From: Candidatus Zhuqueibacterota bacterium
GTDB lineage: Bacteria > Zhuqueibacterota > Zhuqueibacteria > Oceanimicrobiales > Oceanimicrobiaceae
Length of the DNA stretch: 41,617 nucleotides
NCBI GenBank assembly: GCA_029262005.1
Contig: JAJDAG010000113.1
Coordinates: 1-41,617, forward strand
Reading direction: 5' to 3'
Shown here: positions 1 through 37,751 of the stretch, piece by piece
How positions within the stretch are numbered: the first letter of the stretch is position 1
Layout of the letters: the number at the start of each line of letters is the position of its first letter
Position numbers and translations under genes: made by a program
The notes under the pieces: model-generated
What the model saw: the letters and a program-made list of their open reading frames with translations, nothing else
Told to the model about the DNA's origin: nothing
Database searches by the model: none

Positions 1-965
1 TGCCTCTTATAATGCCTTTGACCTCGATGGCCAAAGCACGAACGGCGCGGGCTTCTTTGTGCTTTGTGGCGATGCAGCCAATGTTGCTAATTGTGATTTG
101 GATGTCTCACCCAACACCAATCTAATACAAAACGGTGCAGATGCCGTAGCGCTTTACAGTGGCGATGCCGCAGATTTCCCCAACGGCACTCTTGTTACCA
201 CAGCGAATTTGTTTGATGCTATCGTTTATGATACCAATGATGCAGATGATGCCGGCTTGCTAGTACTTTTAAATTCCGGCCAGCCGCAAGTGAACGAAGG
301 CGGTGCGGGTAACAAAGACATCCACTCTAATTCACGCGTTCCGGATGGCGGAACACTGCGTAACACAGATACTTACGTGCAACAAACACCCACGCCCGGG
401 GCGGCCAATATTATCGCGCCGGATGTGGTCATTAACGAAGTGGATGCAGACCAGACCAGCACGGATAATGCTGAATTTGTAGAGCTTTATGATGGCGGTG
501 TGGGTAATACCGACCTGAGTGGGCTCGTTTTGGTTCTTTTTAATGGCAACGGCGATGCATCTTATAATGCCTTTGACCTCGACGGCCAAAGCACCGATGG
601 TACTGGCTTCTTTGTGGTTTGTGGCGATGCAGCCAATGTCGCCAATTGTGACTTGGATGTCTCACCCAACACCAATCTAATACAAAACGGCGCAGATGCT
701 GTCGCTCTCTATTTAGGGGACGCTACCGACTTTTCAAATGGGACGCCTGTGACGACTTCAAACTTGGTCGATGCCATCGTCTATGATACCAACGACCCGG
801 ATGACGCAGGTTTATTGGTACTGCTCAATGCCGGCCAACCCCAGGTTAATGAAGGCGGAGGCGGTAATAGCTCAAGCGATTCAAACCAACGAATTCCTAA
901 TGGCGCAGGCGGAGCACGGAACACAGACACTTATACTCAGCTACCTCCCACACCCGGGACTGAAA
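1..965 (+). repeat. In-frame tandem repeat, 555-bp period, encoding two LTD domains
   Basis: The segment at 6-110 recurs at 561-665 with only scattered changes, a spacing of 555 bp (exactly 185 codons). For example, the block encoding LDVSPNTNLIQNGADAV begins near 100 and again near 655. The first copy is cut by the window edge, so more copies may lie upstream. The DNA identity is high over the first two thirds of each unit and lower towards its end, which points to fairly recent duplication or gene conversion. Confidence 0.9.
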
Positions 966-3340
966 ATATGGCCCCGCCAGCAGTCATGGCTGAAATTTTT
1001 GAAATTCAGGGCTCTGGTTTAGCAAGTCCCCTTGCAGGCCAAACAGTCATAACTGAAGATAATATTGTCACCGCGGTGAGCACGAACGGATTTTTCATGC
1101 AAACACCCGATGCCAGAACTGATGCGGACCCTGAAACCTCTGATGGTATTTTAGTATTTACCGGCAGCGCGCCCAGCGTGTCTGTGGGCGATCAAGTGGA
1201 TGTTACCGGCCAGGTCGTAGAATTCTTCAATTTGACTGAAATTAGTAGCCCAACATCAATTACGATTGACAACTCCGGTAATCCTCTGCCAACATTGGTC
1301 ACATTTGATGCGAACACACCATCACCGAATCAGCCGCAGCCGACCAACGAACTGGAACGGTTCGAAGGCATGCTGGTAAGCTTTAGTGGTCTCGCCACTG
1401 GACCGACTGATCGATTTGGTGATGTTGCCGTCGTTGCTGCCGGCAACCGTGCCTTTCGGGAACCGGGTGTTGCTTATCCCGGTCTTCCAGGGTTGCCGCT
1501 CTGGGATGGCAATCCCGAAATCTTTGAAATAAATCCCAACGGTCTGGGCCTGGCCGAGGCTGCCATATTTGTAGAGCAAACGGTCATGGTTCAAGGCCCT
1601 TTAAGCTTCAGCTTTGGCGACTATCAAGTGCTGCCCAGCAGTTTAACACTGGGACCAACACCGCCACTGCCTCCGGCCGTGCGGGCACGAACAAGTGAGG
1701 AAGTCACAATTGCCACGCTCAACATGTTCCGCTTATTTGAAGGCTCCACTGATTTCCAAAACCGCTTAAGCAAATTTTCTCTCTTTATTCGTAATGTAAT
1801 GGACGCTCCGGAGATTCTGGCAGTCCAGGAGGTGGAGAATATCAGCACTTTGCAGTCCCTGGCAACCCAAATTCAAAATGATGATTCGAATGTGAATTAC
1901 ACAGCCTACCTGGTCGAAGGCAATGATGTGGGTGGTATTGATGTGGGCTTTCTCGTGCGCAGTTCAATTCAGGTACTCAGCACAACCCAATTGCACAAAG
2001 GTGAAATCTTCACTTTTAACGGGTCCATCCTGCACGACCGGCCGCCGCTGTTGCTTGAGGCAAAAATTCCCGCATCAGGCGATACCGTTAAAGTGCTAAA
2101 CCTGCACTTGCGTTCGCTCGGCGGAATTGACGGCAGTGATTCCACCCGGGTTCGTCTCAAACGTGACGCCCAGGCTACTTCTGTTTCATTGATTGTAGAC
2201 AGCCTGCAAACCGATAATTCCAACGTAAAATTAATTGTGACTGGCGATTTTAATGCCTTTCAATTTACAGACGGTTACGTCCATGTTTTGGGGCAAATTA
2301 TGGGAACACCAGCAAATGCATCACAGGCGCTGATACCCGGAACGGATCAAGTTGATCCTGATTTAACCAATGAAATTCTCGTACTGCCTGCCGAACAACA
2401 ATATTCGTTTAACTTCGGTGGTAGTTCTCAGGTGCTCGACCACATGCTGACTTCAATTAAACTAAGCCCCAAAGTGACAAACGTTGAATATGCCAGGGGA
2501 AATTCTGATGCACCAAATAGTTATCAGGATAGCACTACTTCAGCGTTGCGGGCATCGGACCATGACGGGTTGGTACTATTCCTCGACTTTGTACCACCTC
2601 AGATAACTGTTAATTCAACCCCAGGTAAACTCTGGCCGCCGAACCATAAGTATCACACGATTGCAATCTCTGATTTCGTTCTTGCAGTTATCGATGCTGG
2701 TGCGCCGAACCTGTCTCTTGATGATGTCTTTATCACTTCAGTCACCAGTGATGAACCGGAGAATGGTTCGGGCGACGGCAACACACTCAATGATATTGTC
2801 ATAGTAGACTGTCAAACCGTTGATCTCAGGGCCGAAAGGTCGGGTAAGGGCAACGGACGTGTTTATACGATTCATGTTGGTGCTCAAGATTTGAGCGGCA
2901 ATCTCGGCACAGCGACTTTTCAAGTTCACGTTCCCAAGAATAAGTCCGGCAGTCCGGCTATCGACGACGGCCCTGTCTATGAAGTAGATAGTGGTTGCAA
3001 TGCACCCAATAGCGGTCAGGGTCTGGCAAAATCAAACAGCACTGACGAGACTGCGGTACCAACGGAATTCATGTTGAATCAGAACTATCCGAATCCCTTC
3101 AATCCCGAAACAGCAATTCGTTTTCAATTGCCCGTTGACAGTGAAGTGACTATCAGGATTTTTAATGCTCTTGGCCAGGAAGTCAGAACTTTGGTCAACC
3201 AGGCGTATCCTGCGGGAGTTCACAGAGCAATGTGGAATGCCAGGGATAATAGTGACAATAAAGTTTCAAGCGGGGTCTACATCTATCAAATTAAAGCCGG
3301 CAAGTTCAGCCAGGTAAAAAAGATGCTGTTTCTGCGCTAG
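2..3340 (+). CDS. Secreted endonuclease/exonuclease/phosphatase-fold protein with tandem lamin-tail domains and T9SS sorting domain (5' partial)
   Basis: The reading frame is open from the first bases of the window, so the start and signal peptide lie upstream. Order by position: two near-identical lamin-tail (LTD) domains (about 1-420 and 421-965, the second beginning VVINEVDADQ); an OB-fold-like segment like that of ExeM/NucH-type extracellular nucleases (about 985-1640); a DNase I-like EEP domain (about 1700-2590) with ATLNMF, AVQEVEN, LNLHLRS, TGDFNAF and ASDHDG, which carry the expected Asn, Glu, His, Asp-Asn and Asp-His residues; an Ig/HYR-like domain (about 2595-2940); and a C-terminal sorting domain containing NYPNPFNPETAIRF and ending KKMLFLR. 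Likely role: extracellular or surface-attached nuclease or phosphodiesterase, exported by Sec and then T9SS. Substrate is inferred; EEP enzymes also cut phospholipids and other phosphoesters. The next gene is convergent, so this is the last gene of its transcript. Confidence 0.9.
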   Translation, partial: ASYNAFDLDGQSTNGAGFFVLCGDAANVANCDLDVSPNTNLIQNGADAVALYSGDAADFPNGTLVTTANLFDAIVYDTNDADDAGLLVLLNSGQPQVNEGGAGNKDIHSNSRVPDGGTLRNTDTYVQQTPTPGAANIIAPDVVINEVDADQTSTDNAEFVELYDGGVGNTDLSGLVLVLFNGNGDASYNAFDLDGQSTDGTGFFVVCGDAANVANCDLDVSPNTNLIQNGADAVALYLGDATDFSNGTPVTTSNLVDAIVYDTNDPDDAGLLVLLNAGQPQVNEGGGGNSSSDSNQRIPNGAGGARNTDTYTQLPPTPGTENMAPPAVMAEIFEIQGSGLASPLAGQTVITEDNIVTAVSTNGFFMQTPDARTDADPETSDGILVFTGSAPSVSVGDQVDVTGQVVEFFNLTEISSPTSITIDNSGNPLPTLVTFDANTPSPNQPQPTNELERFEGMLVSFSGLATGPTDRFGDVAVVAAGNRAFREPGVAYPGLPGLPLWDGNPEIFEINPNGLGLAEAAIFVEQTVMVQGPLSFSFGDYQVLPSSLTLGPTPPLPPAVRARTSEEVTIATLNMFRLFEGSTDFQNRLSKFSLFIRNVMDAPEILAVQEVENISTLQSLATQIQNDDSNVNYTAYLVEGNDVGGIDVGFLVRSSIQVLSTTQLHKGEIFTFNGSILHDRPPLLLEAKIPASGDTVKVLNLHLRSLGGIDGSDSTRVRLKRDAQATSVSLIVDSLQTDNSNVKLIVTGDFNAFQFTDGYVHVLGQIMGTPANASQALIPGTDQVDPDLTNEILVLPAEQQYSFNFGGSSQVLDHMLTSIKLSPKVTNVEYARGNSDAPNSYQDSTTSALRASDHDGLVLFLDFVPPQITVNSTPGKLWPPNHKYHTIAISDFVLAVIDAGAPNLSLDDVFITSVTSDEPENGSGDGNTLNDIVIVDCQTVDLRAERSGKGNGRVYTIHVGAQDLSGNLGTATFQVHVPKNKSGSPAIDDGPVYEVDSGCNAPNSGQGLAKSNSTDETAVPTEFMLNQNYPNPFNPETAIRFQLPVDSEVTIRIFNALGQEVRTLVNQAYPAGVHRAMWNARDNSDNKVSSGVYIYQIKAGKFSQVKKMLFLR

Positions 3341-7739: not shown

Positions 7740-7786
7740 CGCTGAAGCACTTGAATTCAATCACAAAAACTTTAATAGCAAAAAAC

Positions 7787-7891
7787 ATGAATTTAGATGC
7801 CTTTGTAGACAAAATAGTAGATGAGATATTAGATGCTCCTACCCGGTGCATCGGCCCCAAATGTAACTGGTGTTGGGTCTGCCCGGATTGC
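7787..7891 (+). other. Encapsulation peptide plus C-x4-C-x2-C-x2-C-x2-C segment of DeoC
   Basis: Codons 1-17 encode the amphipathic helix and codons 21-35 the five-cysteine cluster. The spacing with repeated CxxC steps resembles metal- or iron-sulfur-binding loops. I know of no described DeoC with such a cluster, so ligand and role are unknown. Confidence 0.7.
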
Positions 7892-8614
7892 CGTACTGAG
7901 ATTGTTAAGAGCATTGTCGGTAATGGCGCGCACAGAGTTGGCGCCGGGCCAAATCTAGGGCCGATTCACGACGACCTGGCCAGACAAATAGATCACACAT
8001 TGCTCAAGCCGGAGGCCACGGAAAAAGAAGTCGTCAAACTGTGCGAAGAAGCGGTGCAGTACGGTTTTGCTTCTGTCTGCGTCAACCCTTGCTGGGTAAG
8101 ATTATGCCGTGATTTGCTACAGAGCAGTGGGGTCCTGACTTGCACAGTGATCGGCTTCCCGCTTGGGGCAACAAGCTGTGAATCGAAAGTATTTGAAACT
8201 CAGAAAGCCATCGAACATGGCGCTGATGAAATTGATATGGTTGTCAATGTGGGAAAACTGAAATCCAAAGACTATGATTATGTCGAACGCGATATCCGGG
8301 CGGTTGTTGAAACTGCCGGGTCACAGGCCATTGTCAAAGTGATTCTTGAGACCTGCCTATTGACCGATGATGAAAAAATAATATCATCGCTGATGTCAAA
8401 ACGGGCCGGTGCTGCTTTTGTGAAAACCTCCACCGGCTTTAACAAGGGCGGTGCAACTCTGGGAGACGTGGCACTCATGCGCAAAGTGGTAGGCAGTGAA
8501 CTCGGCGTCAAAGCGTCTGGTGGTGTTCGCGACCTTGAAGGTGCCAGAGAAATGGTCAACGCCGGTGCCAGCAGAATCGGTGCATCCGCAGGAATTAAAA
8601 TAGTGAGCACATGA
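7787..8614 (+). CDS. deoC: Deoxyribose-phosphate aldolase with N-terminal encapsulation helix and Cys cluster
   Basis: Splits 2-deoxyribose-5-phosphate into acetaldehyde and glyceraldehyde-3-phosphate. Counting from ATG 7787 (275 residues), the aldolase core starts near residue 65 and has DEID (Asp150), Schiff-base Lys213 in FVKTSTGF and Lys242 in VKASGGVR, so it should be active. The roughly 63-residue N-terminal extension is unlike ordinary bacterial DeoC. It has an amphipathic helix MNLDAFVDKIVDEILDA (hydrophobic at i, i+3, i+4, i+7, i+8), typical of BMC encapsulation peptides, then five cysteines in CIGPKCNWCWVCPDC (21, 26, 29, 32, 35), then a short linker. A TTG at 7751 would add 12 residues; ATG 7787 is preferred because it places the helix at the extreme N terminus. 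Neither start has a strong Shine-Dalgarno site. The stop overlaps the next start (ATGA, 8611-8614), showing co-translation with the phosphorylase. Confidence 0.96.
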   Translation: MNLDAFVDKIVDEILDAPTRCIGPKCNWCWVCPDCRTEIVKSIVGNGAHRVGAGPNLGPIHDDLARQIDHTLLKPEATEKEVVKLCEEAVQYGFASVCVNPCWVRLCRDLLQSSGVLTCTVIGFPLGATSCESKVFETQKAIEHGADEIDMVVNVGKLKSKDYDYVERDIRAVVETAGSQAIVKVILETCLLTDDEKIISSLMSKRAGAAFVKTSTGFNKGGATLGDVALMRKVVGSELGVKASGGVRDLEGAREMVNAGASRIGASAGIKIVST

Positions 8615-9960
8615 ACCAGGTTGATTTAATCCACAAAAAACGTGATGGCGGCGAGCTCACAGAAAATGAACTCGCCTTTTTAATTTCAGGTTATGTAGCA
8701 GGCGACATTCCAGATTATCAAATATCGGCCTTTCTCATGGCTGTTTATTTTCAGGGAATGACCTCCCGGGAGACCGCAACGCTGACTGCCCTGATGCGTG
8801 ACTCGGGCGTTGTTCTCGACCACAGTCACATCCCCGGCTTTAAAGCGGACAAACACAGCACAGGTGGGGTAGGCGATAAAGTCTCGCTTATTTTGGCGCC
8901 GCTGGTTGCGGCTGCCGGAGTCTATGTGCCCATGATTTCCGGCCGGGCCCTGGCACACACTGGCGGTACGCTGGACAAGCTCGAAGCCATTCCCGGTTTC
9001 CGAACCAATCTTTCTCTTGAGGAAATAGCGCGTCAACTGCCTGAGGTTGGCGCAGTGCTGGTGGGGCAAACCGCTGATTTAACCCCTGCGGATAAAAAAA
9101 TCTACGCCCTGCGCGATGCCACGGCCACGGTCAATTCAATCCCATTGATTACGGCAAGTATTTTAAGTAAAAAAATGGCTGAGGGCATCGATGCCCTGGT
9201 GCTTGATGTTAAGGCTGGTAGCGGCGCTATTTTTAATGAAAAGGAAAAGGCCTGGGAATTGGCCCGAATGCTGGTGAACACGGCTGCACATTTCGGTCTG
9301 AGGACTTCGGCCATTGTGACGGCCATGGATCAGCCTCTGGGCAATGCCATTGGCAACTGGCTCGAAACCAAAGAAGCCATAGACACACTGCGCGGCACTG
9401 GCCCCAAAGATTTGTTGGAACTGACTCTGGTGCTGAGCGCCCAAATGCTGGTCCTTGCCGGAAAAGCCGGCTCGGTGTCCGAAGGATGCGCCATACTTGA
9501 AGAAAAAATAAGCAGCGGCCAGGCGTTTGACAAGTTTCTTGAGCTGGTTAAATGGCATGAAGGCGATGTTTCGGTTGTTCAAAATCCGGATATTTATCCG
9601 CAACCAAAGCATTCGCTTGCCATTAAGAGCGAAACAGACGGCTATGTGGCAAAAGTGGATTCTCGCGAAATCGGCATTGTTTCCATGGCGCTTGGAGCCG
9701 GTAGAAGTTCTGTGGAGGCTGAAATCGATTACACTGCAGGCATTTGTTTAAAGAGAAAGATTTGCGATAGCGTAAAAACCGGTGATACGCTGGCGATGGC
9801 CTACTCGAACCATACGGAATTGTTGCATGCCAATGCAACCCGATTGCAGGCCGCATTCAAAATCGAGATTGAAAAACCAACAACTCCCGGGCTTATTTAT
9901 GGCGTTATCAATTCGGCCGGTGAAAAACATTGGAATGCAGAAAAACGTGATTTTGTTTAA
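8611..9960 (+). CDS. pdp: Pyrimidine-nucleoside phosphorylase (thymidine phosphorylase family)
   Basis: 449 residues. Phosphorolyses thymidine, deoxyuridine or uridine to the free base and (deoxy)ribose-1-phosphate. Signatures: phosphate loop KHSTGGVGDK (81-90) and family signature SGRALAHTGGTLDKLEAIPGF-type segment starting at residue 110. The C-terminal alpha/beta domain ends in a PYNP-type region (about 345-420) followed by a short extra tail of about 15 residues after GLIYGVI. Start codon overlaps the deoC stop by 4 bp. It supplies the sugar phosphate for DeoC. No encapsulation helix is obvious at either end, so it may act in the cytosol, outside the shell. Base preference cannot be told from sequence. 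Confidence 0.95.
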   Translation: MNQVDLIHKKRDGGELTENELAFLISGYVAGDIPDYQISAFLMAVYFQGMTSRETATLTALMRDSGVVLDHSHIPGFKADKHSTGGVGDKVSLILAPLVAAAGVYVPMISGRALAHTGGTLDKLEAIPGFRTNLSLEEIARQLPEVGAVLVGQTADLTPADKKIYALRDATATVNSIPLITASILSKKMAEGIDALVLDVKAGSGAIFNEKEKAWELARMLVNTAAHFGLRTSAIVTAMDQPLGNAIGNWLETKEAIDTLRGTGPKDLLELTLVLSAQMLVLAGKAGSVSEGCAILEEKISSGQAFDKFLELVKWHEGDVSVVQNPDIYPQPKHSLAIKSETDGYVAKVDSREIGIVSMALGAGRSSVEAEIDYTAGICLKRKICDSVKTGDTLAMAYSNHTELLHANATRLQAAFKIEIEKPTTPGLIYGVINSAGEKHWNAEKRDFV

Positions 9961-21133: not shown

Positions 21134-21901
21134 TCATTCTGTAAAAACATCATGCGCTTTTGCCAGATCTCGCGCCGCCGGTGTGACAATGGCGCCGGCG
21201 GGCACGGTAATCTTCCGGTGGCTGAGCATGGCTTGACGCACATCATTTTCGGTAATCAGCCGTTTATTTTGCATTGGCTGCGATTTTGTATCTTTTTTTA
21301 TGATGTAAACATGATCGCCGGTTTTGAGGCCCGATGCATTGGCTTCATCAACATCGATATGGAAATCGAGCACAAACGTTGGCTCGACACGGACCAAAAC
21401 ATTACCGAAAATGATCGAGCGCGGCTCATCTCCGGGATTTACCGCTGCGGTTTCAACCGGCGCAACAAAAACGCGTTCCCGTTCCCGCACACCAAGTTCA
21501 GCCGCATCTCGCGGATTCATGTGAATATGTCTTTGCGGCACAATAACACCCGATTTCAGTTCAACCGTGGCGGCAGGCCCCACAAGTTCAACCCCTGGTG
21601 TACCGGCAAGATCTCCTGAATATCGAACGGGCGGGTCAAGGCCGAGACGATATGCATCTGAACGTGAAATTTCCAACTGTGTCTGACCACGCGTTGGCCC
21701 GACAGCACGCACGCGCTCAATTCGGCCCCCGGGGCCAACAATATCCAATGTTTCCTGAGCGGCAAATTGGCCCTTCTGTGAAATATTTTTAAAGGGTACC
21801 AGAGTATGGCCTGCGCCGTAGAGCTTTTCTAAATCAGCCTGAGACAGGTGAAGATGGCGGTTGGAAACACCGACCGGAATGAATTTTTGTGGTTTGGGCA
21901 T
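21134..21901 (-). CDS. pduL: PduL-type phosphate acyltransferase (BMC phosphotransacylase) with extra C-terminal domain
   Basis: 255 residues. Converts acyl-CoA plus phosphate to acyl-phosphate plus CoA, the step that recycles CoA inside microcompartments and leads to ATP. PduL zinc-ligand motifs: SNRHLHLS (His16, His18), PQRHIHMNP (His125, His127) and DFHIDVDEANA (His181). There is no N-terminal encapsulation helix. Instead a C-terminal segment of about 45 residues (211-255, with RLITENDVRQAM, VPAGAIVTPAARD) follows the core. Similar LITE...VTPAARD segments occur, to my memory, on other microcompartment-linked enzymes, so this may be a targeting or docking domain. Lies 55 bp downstream of the aldehyde dehydrogenase gene and 21 bp upstream of the Nudix gene. 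Confidence 0.93.
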   Translation of the reverse strand: MPKPQKFIPVGVSNRHLHLSQADLEKLYGAGHTLVPFKNISQKGQFAAQETLDIVGPGGRIERVRAVGPTRGQTQLEISRSDAYRLGLDPPVRYSGDLAGTPGVELVGPAATVELKSGVIVPQRHIHMNPRDAAELGVRERERVFVAPVETAAVNPGDEPRSIIFGNVLVRVEPTFVLDFHIDVDEANASGLKTGDHVYIIKKDTKSQPMQNKRLITENDVRQAMLSHRKITVPAGAIVTPAARDLAKAHDVFTE

Positions 21902-21956
21902 TCGTATTTAATAAATCATTTTGAAGGATAGATTGAAGGTAACTAAATGTCGTCAA

Positions 21957-23552
21957 TCACTTGCGATTTGCCAAAAACTCGCCGATCACGCGCTCAACCT
22001 CAGCCTCAGACATGCCCGAAGAACCGTAACTCGCTGCGTCTTCTTTCTTTGCAGGCTGTGAACGTTCCGGTACGGCTGAAGCCGCAGCCCTGCCTTTTCG
22101 CGAGACATTTGCCGACAAAGCTTTTGAAAAGGGTGCCTCTGCGTTGCGCCAATCGTGGCGGATATTCGGGTGCCAGCTATTTTCGTTTCGCGGCATGGAC
22201 ATGGGCTTGGTCTCATACGCCACACGTTTAATATTGAGCAAATGGCGCGCGGTGATGTTGTCCGAAGTGATGTTTCGTCCATAACTTCCACACCCGAGGG
22301 TCAAGGATGGTACAAGTTCATTGGTGTAGCCAACTGAGCCAATGGAAGCAGGAGAATTGACAACAACTCGTGACGCCGGCACACGTATACCAAATTGCCG
22401 GATAACCTCGTCATCTTTTGAATGAACTGAAGCTGTGTGGCCACGCCCGCCCAGATTAAGAATTTCGACGCTGCGCCGGATGCCTTCTTCCCAGCCATTT
22501 ACAACGTAAAAAGCCAGAGTTGGCGATAGTTTTTCAGCGGAGAGCGGGTACATTTTGCCGACGCCGTCCAATTCAGCCACCAACAATTTCGTATCGGCAG
22601 AAATCTCAAAGCCGGCGGTCCGCGCCAGCACCTGCGGTGACTTGCCAACCATTTCAGCATTAATAATTAAATCAGCCGAGATTAAAACCCGCTCAAGCTT
22701 GGCCGTCTCCGCAGCGGTCATAAAATGAGCGCCCTGACTGATCAAGGCCTCTTTTACTTTACTTTTTAGCGGCGCATCCACAATTACAGATTGCTCCGAA
22801 GAACAAAGCGTGCCATGATCAAATGTCTTGCCATCAACAATATCTGAGGCGGCTTTTTTATAATCTGCCGACCGATCAACGTATGCCGGGACATTACCCG
22901 GGCCAACGCCATAAGCCGGCTTGCCCGCACTATAAGCCGCTCGCACAAGGCCAGGGCCACCAGTAGCTAAAATAACATCTGTATCCGGGCTGCGCATAAG
23001 CTCGTTTGTCGCCTTGAGCGTCGGGCCTGAAATAACGCCGATAAGCCCTTCCGGCGCGCCGGCACGCTGTGCTGCCTCAATCAAAATGTTAGCCGCCTCA
23101 ACAATGCACTTTGCTGCACGCGGATGCGGTGAAACAACAATACCGTTACGCGTTTTAAGCGAAATTAGAATATTAAACATTGTGGTTGAGGTCGGATTTG
23201 TGGTTGGAATGATTGCAGCCACAACGCCGAATGGCTCGGCTATTTCCAGAATTTTTTTCTTTCGATCTTCGCTGACAATACCAACAGTGCGCAGATCGCG
23301 AATCGACTCGTACACATCTCTCGTGCTGAACTGGTTTTTCCTTATCTTGTCCGGGATATTGCCGTAGCCGGTTTCACGCACAGCCATTTGCGCCAAATGC
23401 TCCGAAGCCTTGAAGCCCGCCTCAGCCATTGCAGCCACGACTTTATCCACTTGCTCCTGACTGAACTCATTAAATTCAGCTTGGGCCGCTTTGGCTGCAG
23501 CGCAAAGACACCGTACCTTTTGTATGGTTTGAAGATCCTGATCGAGATTCAC
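21957..23552 (-). CDS. Acylating (CoA-dependent) aldehyde dehydrogenase with C-terminal encapsulation peptide
   Basis: 531 residues, PduP/EutE/AdhE-N family. Oxidises acetaldehyde to acetyl-CoA with NAD and CoA. Catalytic cysteine in FDHGTLCSSEQS (Cys250); cofactor motif VILATGGPGLVRAAY (193-207) and GVGPGNVPAYV. The core ends near residue 457. A linker of about 55 residues rich in Ala, Ser and charged residues follows, then an 18-residue amphipathic helix MSEAEVERVIGEFLANRK (514-531), a standard encapsulation-peptide arrangement. First gene of a - strand operon with pduL and a Nudix gene. With DeoC at 7787 it forms the aldehyde-handling core of a microcompartment, although the two loci are about 13 kb apart. 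An alcohol dehydrogenase for NADH recycling is not in the window. Confidence 0.97.
   Translation of the reverse strand: MNLDQDLQTIQKVRCLCAAAKAAQAEFNEFSQEQVDKVVAAMAEAGFKASEHLAQMAVRETGYGNIPDKIRKNQFSTRDVYESIRDLRTVGIVSEDRKKKILEIAEPFGVVAAIIPTTNPTSTTMFNILISLKTRNGIVVSPHPRAAKCIVEAANILIEAAQRAGAPEGLIGVISGPTLKATNELMRSPDTDVILATGGPGLVRAAYSAGKPAYGVGPGNVPAYVDRSADYKKAASDIVDGKTFDHGTLCSSEQSVIVDAPLKSKVKEALISQGAHFMTAAETAKLERVLISADLIINAEMVGKSPQVLARTAGFEISADTKLLVAELDGVGKMYPLSAEKLSPTLAFYVVNGWEEGIRRSVEILNLGGRGHTASVHSKDDEVIRQFGIRVPASRVVVNSPASIGSVGYTNELVPSLTLGCGSYGRNITSDNITARHLLNIKRVAYETKPMSMPRNENSWHPNIRHDWRNAEAPFSKALSANVSRKGRAAASAVPERSQPAKKEDAASYGSSGMSEAEVERVIGEFLANRK
21960..22013 (-). other. Encapsulation peptide of the aldehyde dehydrogenase
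   Basis: The last 18 codons encode an amphipathic helix with hydrophobic residues Val6, Val9, Ile10, Phe13 and Leu14 on one face, joined to the enzyme by a low-complexity linker. Confidence 0.8.
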
Positions 23553-23736: not shown

Positions 23737-24999
23737 TTGCAGCTAAGAAAATCCGGTTTTCAACTTCGGCTATTATTATTGCTGACCTTGTCCCTGAGCA
23801 GTGTTTTTGTATCTACGGCAGTGGCGCAGCTAGACACTTTAAGAATCGCAACCTACAATTTACTAAAATTTCCCGGCAACAATGGCAACGACCGCCTCGA
23901 TGATTTTGAGATTGTTCTTCAACAGATGCAGGCGGATATTCTTGTTGTGCAGGAGCTTGAAACACAGGCTGGACTCACGGCGATCCTCGATATCCTGAAT
24001 GCCAAACAGAATGATTTTGAGGCAGCAGCATTCAGCGATGGTCCGGATACGGATAGCGGCCTTTTTTACAATCGAAACAAAGTCACTTTCAGCAGCCAAA
24101 ATGCCATCGGCACAAGCGTGCGAGACATTATGGAATACAAACTCGCAGCATTTGGCCAGGTGTTCACTATTTTTTCTACACACTTGAAAGCCGGCTCATC
24201 CGGCAGCAATCAGTCAACTCGTTTGGGACAAGCCACATTGCTACGCAACTACATGAATGCTTTGCCGGCGCAAACCAATTTCATGTTATTGGGCGATTTC
24301 AATATGAAGGCGGCAGCCGAACAAGCTTTTATTGAACTCACCGCTAACAAAGCGGACAACGATGGCCGCCTGTTTGATCCGATTAATCAAATTGGCCAGT
24401 GGTTCAATAACGCAGCTTTTATCCCGATACATACTCAGTCTACCCGGACAACTTCATTTAATAAAGGCGCTACCGGCGGTCTTGACGACAGATTTGACAT
24501 GATACTGGTTTCACAAGCGCTACTGGCTCAAGGAGGTGTTGAAATCCTGCCTGACAGTTACACCGCCTTTGGCAATGACAGCCAGCATTTCAATTTGGAC
24601 ATCAACTCCGGTGACAACACGGCGGTTCCCAACAATGTGGCGGATGCCCTGCACCAGGCATCGGACCATTTGCCTGTTTTCGCCGACTTTATTTTTGAAG
24701 ACCCGACTTCTGTTTCCGAAACCGGCGATATTCCAAATGCATTTCAACTGCTGAAAAACTTTCCCAACCCGTTTAATCCCACAACCACGATTCGTTTCTC
24801 ATTGCGCCAGGCAGACCATGTCAATTTACGCGTGTTCAATTTGGCCGGCCAGGAGGTCGCTGTTTTGGCTGACGGCTATAAAAAGGCGGGCGAACAATCA
24901 ATTGAATTTGATGCAAGCGGTTTGAGTAGCGGTGTTTACATCTACAAATTGAGCGCACACGGCTTGAGCATTTCGAAGAAACTTTTACTTTTGAAATAA
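23737..24999 (+). CDS. Secreted endonuclease/exonuclease/phosphatase (DNase I-fold) protein with T9SS sorting domain
   Basis: 420 residues from a TTG start; GGAG at 23725-23728 supports it. Signal peptide at 1-30 (cleavage after AVA). EEP domain about 34-318: IATYNLLKF (Asn41), VVQELETQ (Glu73), FSTHLKAG (His149), LLGDFNM (Asp187, Asn189), RFDMILVS (Asp254) and ASDHLPVFADF (Asp310, His311), so the catalytic set is complete. C-terminal sorting domain about 333-420 has NFPNPFNPTTTIRFS and ends KKLLLLK. Likely extracellular nuclease or phosphodiesterase. It is divergent from the aldehyde dehydrogenase operon (184 bp between), so the two may share regulation. Same enzyme fold as the gene at 2-3340 but without LTD and OB domains. 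Confidence 0.92.
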   Translation: MQLRKSGFQLRLLLLLTLSLSSVFVSTAVAQLDTLRIATYNLLKFPGNNGNDRLDDFEIVLQQMQADILVVQELETQAGLTAILDILNAKQNDFEAAAFSDGPDTDSGLFYNRNKVTFSSQNAIGTSVRDIMEYKLAAFGQVFTIFSTHLKAGSSGSNQSTRLGQATLLRNYMNALPAQTNFMLLGDFNMKAAAEQAFIELTANKADNDGRLFDPINQIGQWFNNAAFIPIHTQSTRTTSFNKGATGGLDDRFDMILVSQALLAQGGVEILPDSYTAFGNDSQHFNLDINSGDNTAVPNNVADALHQASDHLPVFADFIFEDPTSVSETGDIPNAFQLLKNFPNPFNPTTTIRFSLRQADHVNLRVFNLAGQEVAVLADGYKKAGEQSIEFDASGLSSGVYIYKLSAHGLSISKKLLLLK

Positions 25000-33434: not shown

Positions 33435-36400
33435 TCATTTTAAAAAAAACATCTTTTTCACACCTGTGTGAGAATCCGTTTTCAATCTATAAATGTACAG
33501 ACCTGAAGCGTAGCGACTACCATCAAAAGCAACCGCATGGTATCCCGCTTCTTTTTCACTATCTATTAGCACAGCTACTTCCTCACCAAGAATATTGTAA
33601 ATGCTCAATTTAACCCGGCCTGGTTCGGGTAGATCAAACTTAATAGTGGTACTCGGATTAAAAGGATTCGGGAAGTTCTGATAAAGCTGGTATTTATCAG
33701 GAATTTGCATATTTACTTCTATTACTTTGGAGTATTCAAAAGTGCCGTCCAAATCGACTTGTTTCAGTCTATATTTGATAATGACGCTCGTCGGCGATTC
33801 ATCAACATAGAAGTATTTTTTAGGTGAAGTGCTGTTGCCGTGCCCATTTACAAACCCAATTTCCTGCCAATCGTTATTCGCTGCGCCGCTTGCTCTTTGA
33901 ATTGAAAAACCAAAGTTGTTTGTTTCAGTCTCTGTTCCCCATTGCAACTTTACTGAATTGCCGTTAACCAACGCACTAAATGAAGATAACTCAACCGGAA
34001 GAGGCCCATTATACGGAATGAGCTCGGCTTCCAGGCTTTGCGCATCGAAGCAATCGAATTCTATAACGGTGTTCGAGTCGATTCTGTTGATGATTCGGGC
34101 AGCGGAAGGAGAGCCGCTCAAATCCCAATTCCCTTTCACCTTTATTTGCACCTTCTGCACAGTCGATTGGGCATTGGTCAAAGCCAGATTGCTGTTCCTG
34201 CTGATATTGCCATACACAATAAATTGGTCTTCATCGAGCCGGCCAAATTCCGGATTACAGACACTGACTTTCAGGTTGCTCGCCGAATGATTGAGCATGA
34301 CGATGCTCGGTTTATCGGCGCCGCGCAGCAGGCTGTCGGCAAGGAGACTGTAGCCGGACTGAAACAGGGCATAGCCGGTAATATCCAGTTCCTCGTGCCG
34401 CACGATGTGCGCCGTACTGTCCTTTTTCAAAACAGTGTATTTGGACGCTGCCGCATTGGCAAAATCCTGCAGACTTGCAGCATCTGTTTTAATCAACATC
34501 ACATACTCATAATCTTCATTGTTCGGATTCTTACCGTGGTCAATCCAGGCTGTGGCGAAATCACCCTGGGTATTGGTTGCGCCACTATTATCTATTGATG
34601 ACTGCGAGGAACGAATGATATTTACGCCTGTTCGATTGGGCAAATAAAAGCCGTTGCCAATGGGATCCATTAATGTGATCGAATTGCTGCCACTCGCAGC
34701 AAATGTATATGGAAAGGTGGATACACTGGTCGAATCAACATATATCGGTGTTGACGCGGATGACAGATTGCTCTGAAAAAGCGTTGTTTCGGTTTGATTT
34801 ACGCCGTCGCCGTTGATGATGTTGGAACCCAGGCAAATAATTTGATCATTGAAAAAAAACATTGATTTATTCACCCGTGTTCCGGCTGACGAGGCGGCGT
34901 CATAATGTTTCATAGCAAAGACGCCGTGCAAATCATCCAGGCTGCCGCCGCCGACAAAAGATTGATCGCTGAATTTTCGATGGCCATTCTGATCGGAATA
35001 AGTAGTGGAGCCTTTGAGGACGGCCAGGGAGAGTTTGAGCGCTGTCACGCCGGGTATTCGGGCCCAATCCCACCCATCTTCAACAATGCCGCTGGAAGTT
35101 TCATCAACCGGGCTGCCGTGGGTTAGCAAGCTAATGGAGCCGTAGCTGGAATATCTTCCATAGACATGTTCATTGCTGGATTGTTCGTAAGAGATGATAT
35201 TTTTGCTATAGCCTTTTACGGTGACCATCCATTCGTTGCGGCGATGAACCGACATGGCGGCATAAGGCTTGACCCAATGCCCGGAAGGGTCAGGCTCTGC
35301 CGAGTAGCTTTCTGATAGAGTTAAAAGGGTGTCCAGTTCGCCAATAGGTCTCGCCCAGCTAATGGCGCTCTGCACCTTCTTGAGGTACTTGGACTTGAAC
35401 AACGGGTGGTCGACGTCGTACATACGCAGAAAGGCGGCGGCCATTTCGTTATCAACCGTATTACCTGCCAGAGCCATCAACCCATAAGCGGAGACGTGTT
35501 TTATCAATGAATAAGCGGCATCCGGGGCGCGACCTGCCGTGCCTACCGGGACATCATATTTGTTGGCGATTAAGCGATGTGCCAAAAGCGATTGCTTGAG
35601 ATTTGTTTTGCTTTGCGCTGCAAGATCCCAGGACGATTCACTCAGAAGATAGGCAATGATAGAACACTGATGCAGCGCTTCCGGGACATAGGAAGTAGCA
35701 TACACCATTTTGTGATGATAACCCAGGTAATCGGGCTTGATCATATCCGACCATCCATAGGCAATGCTAAGGGCATTATCAAGAAAGGTTTTCAGAAAAT
35801 CCATGTTGGCGATTCTGGTGGCATCCGTAAAATCCTGAGCCAAAATATAAACAAACCTGTGCATAGCAACTTCGCGAAGGCCATCTGTGTTAAATCCGGT
35901 ATAGGTGAAAGAAAACCCCGAAGCCTGTGGTTGAATTATTCTCGTTGCCCAATCTAATGTTGCCATTTCTCTGTAAAAAAGACCTACTGCTTTTAACTCG
36001 TCGCGCATAATGAGAACTGCATGCGCGTAGCCTGCCATACGCTCGGAAATTGTATTCGCAAAAGGGGTATAGGTATTCAAATCCGAATCAAATGGGCGCC
36101 CATCAGATAATTTCATTTCAATACCATCCGTCCAACCCCTTGAATTCAGATATTCGAACAATATTAGTATCCTCTCCAAGGTTGTGCTGTCATAGTAATA
36201 AGGATTAAGATCATTACTCGGTCCTTGTAAGTGATAGCTGTATGCCAGCGGAAATAGAATGTTGGCAAAAATATGCTTAAGTTCGTTATAGTCATCTGTG
36301 TCTTCAAGGTCATATTGTCCCGAGCCCGAGGGAGTAAAATTGTCATACTCTGTATTGGCGCTGCTAAAGTAGTTTTTTAAAGCGTTATAACGTTGCTGAA

Positions 36401-37751
36401 TGCCGTAGATAGTGTAATCGGGATTTGTGCCGAGCAGCCAGGTCCGGTATTTTGTTCTGACACTATCAAGTCCGCTTAGGTCGGTAAAAGCGTTGGAGCC
36501 GGAATAGACAACCTTATACAAGTGTCTGGAATTTAGAAACAAATCGGTTGAACCGGTATAGTTTTGAGCGTCTTTCGGCTCCCTGCCATCGGGAAACGTA
36601 AGGGAATTGGCATAACTGACGCCGTCATCTGTGGAGGATTTAATATAGGCGTCGTTTGTATCGCGCGCATAGGCATTTATTAAATCGCCTGTGTCCGTTA
36701 CAGGCGGTTTCTCGTGATTTCGCATGTCGCCTAGATTGGTTACGCGATTCCAGGCGCTGCCGGTCCATTGGGCAATATCCAGCCTGTATATTGGATTCGT
36801 TTGACTGTAATTGTTGGTATTATAGGCGAAAGTTACTACAGGGCGACCCAGTCGATTAATGGTAACTCTTGGTGGTTGGATTTCATTGGTTGTATCTCCC
36901 CAGGCCTGTTCCCCCGGGTAGAATAGATCCGCATTAGTCGAATCTACATCGATTGGAATACCGACTTCGGTTCCATCGGCCTTATAATACTTGTCATTCG
37001 CCACATCATAACGCAGGTATGTGCCTTTTTGAAAAGTATTATCTCCACTGTGTAACTGCGACCAGACTGTCACAATATGAACACTATTATTTTCATCGCC
37101 ATAGATTTGGCTCATGTAGGCATTACGTCCATCCTGTTTCTTGAGTAATACCATTGTCCAGGTTTTCGTGATGTTGTTCCAGTGATAAAGGTCCTGCTTC
37201 TCATCATATTGACGCTCCCTGAGCGTTGCTCCATTAAAATACAGCCCTGTCCTTCTCGCTATAAAAAACACATCGCCATTCGTCGAGGTCGTCGCCCAGG
37301 GATAGGTGTATCTTCTTTCATCAAGGCCGGTATCATTGTAACCGGGCATGGTGGCGCTTTGGTCGGTAAAGCTATTGTATGAGCCTGCACTGTTAGACCG
37401 GTAGTATTTCATTTTGTGGTTATGCATGCCTATCCAGCAATGAATAAAACCGTCGCCATCGACAGCGATTGCAGCGTCATTGTGAGATTGGTCATCAGCG
37501 GCGATGGTGGGAAATAAGTCGCCGGACCAGTCGCTGCTGCCGGTATCCATATCATAACGGCAAACTCTTCCTGAGTCGGTGCCGGCGGTGTAGAGTATAT
37601 AAACGTAATTTCCATAATAAGCGAAAGCAGGATTACCCTTTGAACTTGTACCCTGCCCGTAGTCAACCAATTGGGTTACGGTTTGTGCAGAAACATTTAT
37701 TGCCATTAGTGACAATAAAACCATAACCAAAAATGTAAGTTGCTTTTTCAT
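33435..37751 (-). CDS. Secreted two-module polysaccharide lyase: BNR_4 propeller (PL24/25-like) plus PL8 chondroitinase-like, T9SS sorting domain
   Basis: 1438 residues from ATG 37751; AAGGAA 8-9 bases upstream decides it, although the frame is open 36 codons further up. Signal peptide 1-22 (SAQ end). Module 1 (about 25-420) is a BNR_4 beta-propeller; His90 (DQSHND), His110/His112 (IGMHNHKMKYY), Tyr148/Tyr150 and Arg166/Arg167 sit where ulvan-lyase propellers (PL24/25) place catalytic His, His, Tyr and Arg. Module 2 (about 430-1230) looks like PL8 chondroitin ABC lyase: KPDYLGYHH (His679/680), Tyr688, Arg741 in AGRAPD, and Glu861 in NEHVYGRYSSYG, matching that enzyme's His, Tyr, Arg and Glu. 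A C-terminal fibronectin-like segment (about 1250-1340) precedes a sorting domain with NFPNPFNPSTTIKF ending KKMFFLK. Predicted to eliminate uronic-acid-containing polymers outside the cell. Sulfated algal or glycosaminoglycan substrates are inference. Confidence 0.82.
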   Translation of the reverse strand: MKKQLTFLVMVLLSLMAINVSAQTVTQLVDYGQGTSSKGNPAFAYYGNYVYILYTAGTDSGRVCRYDMDTGSSDWSGDLFPTIAADDQSHNDAAIAVDGDGFIHCWIGMHNHKMKYYRSNSAGSYNSFTDQSATMPGYNDTGLDERRYTYPWATTSTNGDVFFIARRTGLYFNGATLRERQYDEKQDLYHWNNITKTWTMVLLKKQDGRNAYMSQIYGDENNSVHIVTVWSQLHSGDNTFQKGTYLRYDVANDKYYKADGTEVGIPIDVDSTNADLFYPGEQAWGDTTNEIQPPRVTINRLGRPVVTFAYNTNNYSQTNPIYRLDIAQWTGSAWNRVTNLGDMRNHEKPPVTDTGDLINAYARDTNDAYIKSSTDDGVSYANSLTFPDGREPKDAQNYTGSTDLFLNSRHLYKVVYSGSNAFTDLSGLDSVRTKYRTWLLGTNPDYTIYGIQQRYNALKNYFSSANTEYDNFTPSGSGQYDLEDTDDYNELKHIFANILFPLAYSYHLQGPSNDLNPYYYDSTTLERILILFEYLNSRGWTDGIEMKLSDGRPFDSDLNTYTPFANTISERMAGYAHAVLIMRDELKAVGLFYREMATLDWATRIIQPQASGFSFTYTGFNTDGLREVAMHRFVYILAQDFTDATRIANMDFLKTFLDNALSIAYGWSDMIKPDYLGYHHKMVYATSYVPEALHQCSIIAYLLSESSWDLAAQSKTNLKQSLLAHRLIANKYDVPVGTAGRAPDAAYSLIKHVSAYGLMALAGNTVDNEMAAAFLRMYDVDHPLFKSKYLKKVQSAISWARPIGELDTLLTLSESYSAEPDPSGHWVKPYAAMSVHRRNEWMVTVKGYSKNIISYEQSSNEHVYGRYSSYGSISLLTHGSPVDETSSGIVEDGWDWARIPGVTALKLSLAVLKGSTTYSDQNGHRKFSDQSFVGGGSLDDLHGVFAMKHYDAASSAGTRVNKSMFFFNDQIICLGSNIINGDGVNQTETTLFQSNLSSASTPIYVDSTSVSTFPYTFAASGSNSITLMDPIGNGFYLPNRTGVNIIRSSQSSIDNSGATNTQGDFATAWIDHGKNPNNEDYEYVMLIKTDAASLQDFANAAASKYTVLKKDSTAHIVRHEELDITGYALFQSGYSLLADSLLRGADKPSIVMLNHSASNLKVSVCNPEFGRLDEDQFIVYGNISRNSNLALTNAQSTVQKVQIKVKGNWDLSGSPSAARIINRIDSNTVIEFDCFDAQSLEAELIPYNGPLPVELSSFSALVNGNSVKLQWGTETETNNFGFSIQRASGAANNDWQEIGFVNGHGNSTSPKKYFYVDESPTSVIIKYRLKQVDLDGTFEYSKVIEVNMQIPDKYQLYQNFPNPFNPSTTIKFDLPEPGRVKLSIYNILGEEVAVLIDSEKEAGYHAVAFDGSRYASGLYIYRLKTDSHTGVKKMFFLK

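Follow-up and report, generated by a model that had tools for sequence, protein, structure and literature searches.

The question raised by this locus is whether a single secreted protein could carry two lyases that act on acidic polysaccharides. The window, by which we mean the whole stretch of 41,617 nucleotides analysed (contig JAJDAG010000113.1 of the Candidatus Zhuqueibacterota assembly GCA_029262005.1), encodes at positions 33435 to 37751 a protein in which a BNR_4-type propeller precedes a complete PL8 lyase. We consider it about an even chance (roughly 0.5) that this protein is a two-headed uronate lyase that reaches the cell surface through the type IX secretion system (T9SS). That reading builds on the domain architecture, the predicted folds, the residues retained and the PL8 phylogeny, and proposes from them what each head would do, on which substrates, and how the two might cooperate.

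A BNR_4-PL8 fusion in one secreted protein

The fusion gene and its parts are as follows.

33435..37751, minus strand: fusion gene, 1438 residues (open reading frame and translation; ATG at 37751, stop ending at 33435)
37683..37751, minus strand: signal peptide, residues 1-23 (MKKQLTFLVMVLLSLMAINVSAQ), read by eye from the sequence
36492..37682, minus strand: module 1, BNR_4 propeller type, residues 24-420 (Pfam PF15892, E 2.9e-25)
36744-37601, minus strand: Pfam BNR_4 core of module 1, residues 51-336
35277..36479, minus strand: module 2a, PL8 alpha/alpha toroid with H680, Y688 and R741, residues 425-825 (Lyase_catalyt, E 4.5e-33)
34494..35255, minus strand: module 2b, PL8 super-sandwich with E856, residues 833-1086 (Lyase_8, E 6.2e-37; Foldseek to 2q1f, 3e-51)
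34248..34436, minus strand: module 2c, PL8 C-terminal beta-sandwich, residues 1106-1168 (Lyase_8_C, E 1.4e-7)
33717..34013, minus strand: Ig-like stretch, residues 1247-1345 (matches in its own genome at 40-45% identity, from near residue 1247)
33450..33674, minus strand: T9SS type A sorting domain, residues 1360-1434 (Por_Secre_tail, E 9.9e-9; TIGR04183, 36.4 bits)

The reading frame is intact, with no internal stop over 4317 bp, and every Pfam domain scored above its curated cut-off: BNR_4 (89.6 bits against 27.3), Lyase_catalyt (115.4 against 25.1, spanning residues 572-779), Lyase_8 (127.9 against 27), Lyase_8_C (32.3 against 22), and Por_Secre_tail (35.8 against 27). The sorting domain was also recognized by NCBIfam (cut-off of 23 for TIGR04183); together with the signal peptide, it marks the protein as T9SS cargo, and the Ig-like stretch before it is common to other T9SS-tailed proteins of the host genome. 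The initial annotation had proposed a BNR_4-PL8 fusion in one secreted protein, and these data confirm it. An Rfam search of the window gave no match.

It could be argued that two unrelated genes were misjoined during assembly, since there is a single draft assembly, in 205 contigs, and no close relative carries the gene. However, the frame is open throughout, the join falls at a domain border, and module 1 has a signal peptide yet no sorting tail of its own. The GC content and the GC content at third codon positions are alike in module 1 (0.466 and 0.494) and in the PL8 module (0.471 and 0.516) and therefore give no hint of a chimeric join. We regard such an artefact as extremely improbable.

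The fused query was run on 82 genomes of the host's phylum, 295 of Bacteroidia, 295 of the Carboxylicivirga order, 288 of the Pontiella class, 64 of the Latescibacterota-type phylum, and 294 of the Phycisphaerae phylum. Among the approximately 1,450 genomes searched, including the other members of the host's phylum (82 species in all), no other BNR_4-PL8 fusion was found, although the samples were scored by sequence similarity and absence from them is no proof. A single degenerate-pattern scan of contigs from 84,980 species recovered 11 PL8 loci, none with BNR_4; a plasmid search returned distant BNR_4 matches only, and a literature search of limited scope located no description of the pairing. 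Within these limits the earlier suggestion that the pairing was undescribed holds, and the protein unites domains of known kinds in a new way.

The long PL8 reading frames were inspected individually (L057, L161, L056, L124, L125, L055, and L126). Three Bacteroidales proteins, L056 (Carboxylicivirga), L124, and L125, have an NHL-type propeller before the PL8 domains and a T9SS tail, with whole-protein NHL scores above the cut-off (barely so in L124); the N-terminal domain of L055 has no Pfam match. Three PL8 proteins with Lyase_N (L057, L127, and L161) contain an unassigned insert of about 200 residues near the start of the toroid. In L126:977-5833 (G394), a reading frame of 1619 residues, the N-terminus reads as a sulfatase and the PL8 match lies further on, a possible sulfatase-PL8 fusion. 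In L162:229-2640 (G1178), BNR_4 (305 bits) is joined to a possible GH5-like domain (Cellulase, 20 bits, below the cut-off).

The PL8 module and its clade

Residues 425 to 1246 make up a complete PL8 lyase. Its sequence matched chondroitinase ABC of Bacteroides thetaiotaomicron (2q1f, E 2e-73) and chondroitinase ABC I (cABC-I) of Proteus vulgaris (8e-52). The AlphaFold2 model was of high confidence (predicted local distance difference test [pLDDT], 91.5; predicted template modelling score [pTM], 0.93), and Foldseek placed it closest to 2q1f and then to the cABC-I structure 1hn0. H680, Y688, R741, and E856 align with His501, Tyr508, Arg560, and Glu653 of cABC-I, whose roles have been described (PMC8684500). 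On the strength of the sequence and the model, this head is very probably an active glycosaminoglycan (GAG) lyase. It would cleave chondroitin or dermatan sulfate or hyaluronan through beta-elimination, in which H680 would take the C5 proton of the uronate and Y688 and R741 would protonate the leaving oxygen.

Pfam found no Lyase_N, the N-terminal domain of the PL8 ABC-lyase subgroup, in the fusion protein; this domain is not defining for PL8 as a whole. In a 36-row PL8 tree, the module was sister (support, 100/100) to P0002 of the same genome (L022:10406-13282), its closest PL8 paralogue (54-55% identity), which likewise lacks Lyase_N. Both fell inside a 13-row set (97/99) whose Pfam-scanned members are all without Lyase_N, and in which the NHL-propeller fusions form a separate group (100/100). 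A propeller on PL8 is thus not unique to the window protein, and the N-terminal position of this clade is held by nothing, by a domain without a Pfam match (L055), by an NHL propeller with linker domains (L056, L124, and L125), or by BNR_4 (the window protein). The inner arrangement of the set had moderate support (84/90 and 81/90) and some branches were long; two independent gains are therefore likely rather than proven, and propellers were probably attached to PL8 twice, as far as the tree can tell.

P0002 lies on host contig C14 with P0003, a second PL8 protein, in which Lyase_N is present. Several sulfatases accompany them, and the locus also holds genes for a GH88-like/unsaturated-uronyl hydrolase, KduI/KduD-like proteins, a KDG kinase/aldolase, a NagB-like protein, a TRAP transporter, and a TonB receptor. 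With gene functions assigned from reading translations and the two PL8 domains identified by Pfam, it reads as a locus of GAG type. It can be envisioned that the fusion originated from a Lyase_N-less PL8 protein, paralogous to the one encoded here, through the addition of a BNR_4 domain.

Is the propeller a second lyase?

A single-sequence search (phmmer) with module 1 matched only structures of the former GH145 type (5muk, 5mum, 5mvh, and 4irt); no PL24 structure was matched directly at E<=10, and these were reached only through a profile. The profile, built with 18 homologues, added FoRham1 (PL42), LOR_107/Uly1 (PL24), and a PL25 ulvan lyase. Foldseek with the AlphaFold2 model of module 1 (pLDDT, 68; pTM, 0.77) ranked the relatives in the same way: BT3686-type former GH145 structures, FoRham1, LOR107, and the PL25 ulvan lyase. 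Module 1, the sole BNR_4 domain in the host genome, appears from sequence and model to form an orphan lineage within the BNR_4 lyase superfamily, distantly related to the propeller lyases. It is not a member of PL42 or PL24, and it probably does not belong to PL25.

The codons of its putative catalytic residues are located as follows.

37254..37484, minus strand: module 1 catalytic set overall, aligned to FoRham1 His85/His105/Tyr150/Arg166
37482-37484, minus strand: H90
37422-37424, minus strand: H110
37302-37304, minus strand: Y150
37254-37256, minus strand: R166

The residue roles come from the FoRham1 study, which also reports a coming change of the GH145 name to PL42 (PMC8377490). All five residues of the anterior lyase set of PL42 are kept in the alignment, with H90, H110, Y150, R166, and Y212 of module 1 at the positions of His85, His105, Tyr150, Arg166, and Tyr202; the first four are invariant there, and Y212 is near-invariant. 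Module 1 keeps 28 of 55 strongly conserved columns, and the five catalytic ones are all among them (hypergeometric P 0.028), a result that is suggestive only, given the few columns and a catalytic set picked beforehand from the literature. The initial annotation had noted that both modules appear to retain their catalytic residues, and alignment to solved enzymes bears this out.

The closest sequence and fold matches, the BT3686-type structures and FoRham1, might suggest that module 1 releases rhamnose, as an enzyme of the PL42/former GH145 type, and that the protein attacks gum-arabic-like side chains as well as GAGs. However, the posterior catalytic His48 of GH145 is replaced by Tyr46, the -1 rhamnose residues Asn275 and Gln276 by Gln292 and Pro293, and the GGGTK and WEPxxDTELW motifs are absent. 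With NF052497, the NCBIfam model for BT3686, module 1 scored 56.6 bits, below the cut-off of 700; two free-standing homologues scored 667 and 752. Because the rhamnose-pocket residues and the posterior histidine are lost, module 1 is no typical PL42 or GH145 member, and we consider rhamnose release very unlikely. GH145 hydrolase identity was rejected on the missing His48.

Several observations weigh against a catalytic propeller. The module 1 model is of low confidence beyond approximately residue 340, and the fusion gene lies apart from the GAG locus, beside housekeeping genes. In PL42, Ser170, Arg220, Asn275, and Gln276 keep the departing rhamnose and the uronate in position; module 1 has Tyr, Ser, Gln, and Pro, respectively, in their places. 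Mutants of FoRham1 Arg220 were strongly impaired (PMC8377490). In addition, the corresponding position in cousin PL8 proteins is occupied by an NHL propeller, a hint that propellers there may serve binding. The PL8 head alone may therefore be catalytic, with the BNR_4 domain a former lyase that was kept for binding, positioning, or stabilization in the place of the missing Lyase_N. The readiness of this clade to swap N-terminal modules, and the abutment of the two modules, with residue 425, straight after the propeller, opening the first toroid helix in the PL8 model, fit such a role. Pure binding would not, however, need the five anterior catalytic residues that all persist beyond the expectation of random loss among conserved columns. 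Their retention favors a second lyase, whereas the loss of substrate-fixing residues and the NHL cousins favor a binding module; we give the latter somewhat less than even odds and regard catalysis by the propeller, judged from sequence and model, as evenly balanced. The initial annotation called module 1 a propeller lyase, a label given here from fold and residues: the fold and the anterior residues agree with it, and the lost substrate-site residues and the low NF052497 score do not.

If the protein is two-headed, the propeller (residues 24-420) would be a BNR_4-superfamily lyase, divergent and undescribed, related to PL42, PL24, and PL25, which keeps the acid/base histidines of the anterior face, the tyrosine, and the charge-neutralizing arginine around a rebuilt leaving-group subsite. 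Because that subsite is rebuilt, the bond cut would probably adjoin a uronate but differ from Rha-GlcA, and might belong to the same acidic polysaccharide that the PL8 head attacks or to an associated one. A bolder proposal makes module 1 the first member of a new propeller-lyase family, with a GAG or associated acidic glycan as its substrate, working in cis with PL8 on two linkages of one material; this seems to us improbable. Ulvan as a substrate has no support.

Should both heads work, a single natural protein could serve as a tool for acidic polymers, and the range of propeller lyases would no longer stop at rhamnose-uronate substrates. Should the propeller only bind, the tree still describes a Lyase_N-less PL8 clade that swaps its N-terminal module and to which propellers were probably attached twice.

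Genomic setting and known systems

The neighbors of the fusion gene encode a DUF885 protein, ClpB, and a divergently transcribed receptor, soon after which the contig ends.

38826..41552, plus strand: TonB-dependent receptor-type gene upstream of the fusion gene (CarboxypepD_reg and Plug domains)

It is possible that this receptor is an uptake partner of the fusion protein. The host genome gave about 150 matches to the query, nearly all at the C-terminal sorting tail, indicating a very large T9SS secretome; in the window, 59-3340 and 23737-24999 encode two secreted, T9SS-tailed proteins of the endonuclease/exonuclease/phosphatase family. Elsewhere in the window, 7751-9960 and 21134-23552 encode a DeoC-like aldolase with a Cys-rich N-terminus, a pyrimidine phosphorylase, a PduL-type phosphotransacylase, and an aldehyde dehydrogenase with a C-terminal extension. 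As bacterial microcompartment shell proteins occur in the host genome (C91 and C57), these enzymes may be microcompartment cargo.

Compared with the chondroitinases ABC 2q1f and 1hn0, the window protein has the same toroid, super-sandwich, and C-terminal domains and the same His/Tyr/Arg/Glu active site, but a BNR_4 propeller stands in the place of Lyase_N. Unlike cABC-I, it has His679 at the charge-neutralizing Arg500, a His-His motif shared with 2q1f (FHHR), and Ala742 at the sulfate-contacting His561. With FoRham1, an L-rhamnose-alpha-1,4-D-glucuronate lyase, and BT3686, it shares the BNR_4 propeller and the equivalents of the five anterior residues; it differs in lacking the rhamnose pocket, Arg220, and the posterior histidine, at an identity of about 20%. 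The ulvan lyases of PL24 (LOR_107) and PL25 (PLSV_3936) have a similar fold and His/Tyr/Arg lyase logic at about 14% identity (Foldseek). The PL25 zinc site consists of His208, His264, Cys266, and His278 (PMC13193363); counting four residues on from the catalytic arginine puts the first ligand, the only one placed, at Leu170. P0002 resembles the window protein in its PL8 module, its T9SS tail, and its lack of Lyase_N, but has no propeller and sits in the GAG locus. The Bacteroidales NHL-PL8-T9SS proteins differ in the type of propeller, in the extra domains between it and PL8, in having no BNR_4 match, and in their separate branch of the tree; like the window protein, they have a propeller followed by a PL8 that lacks Lyase_N and belongs to this clade, and they end in a T9SS tail.

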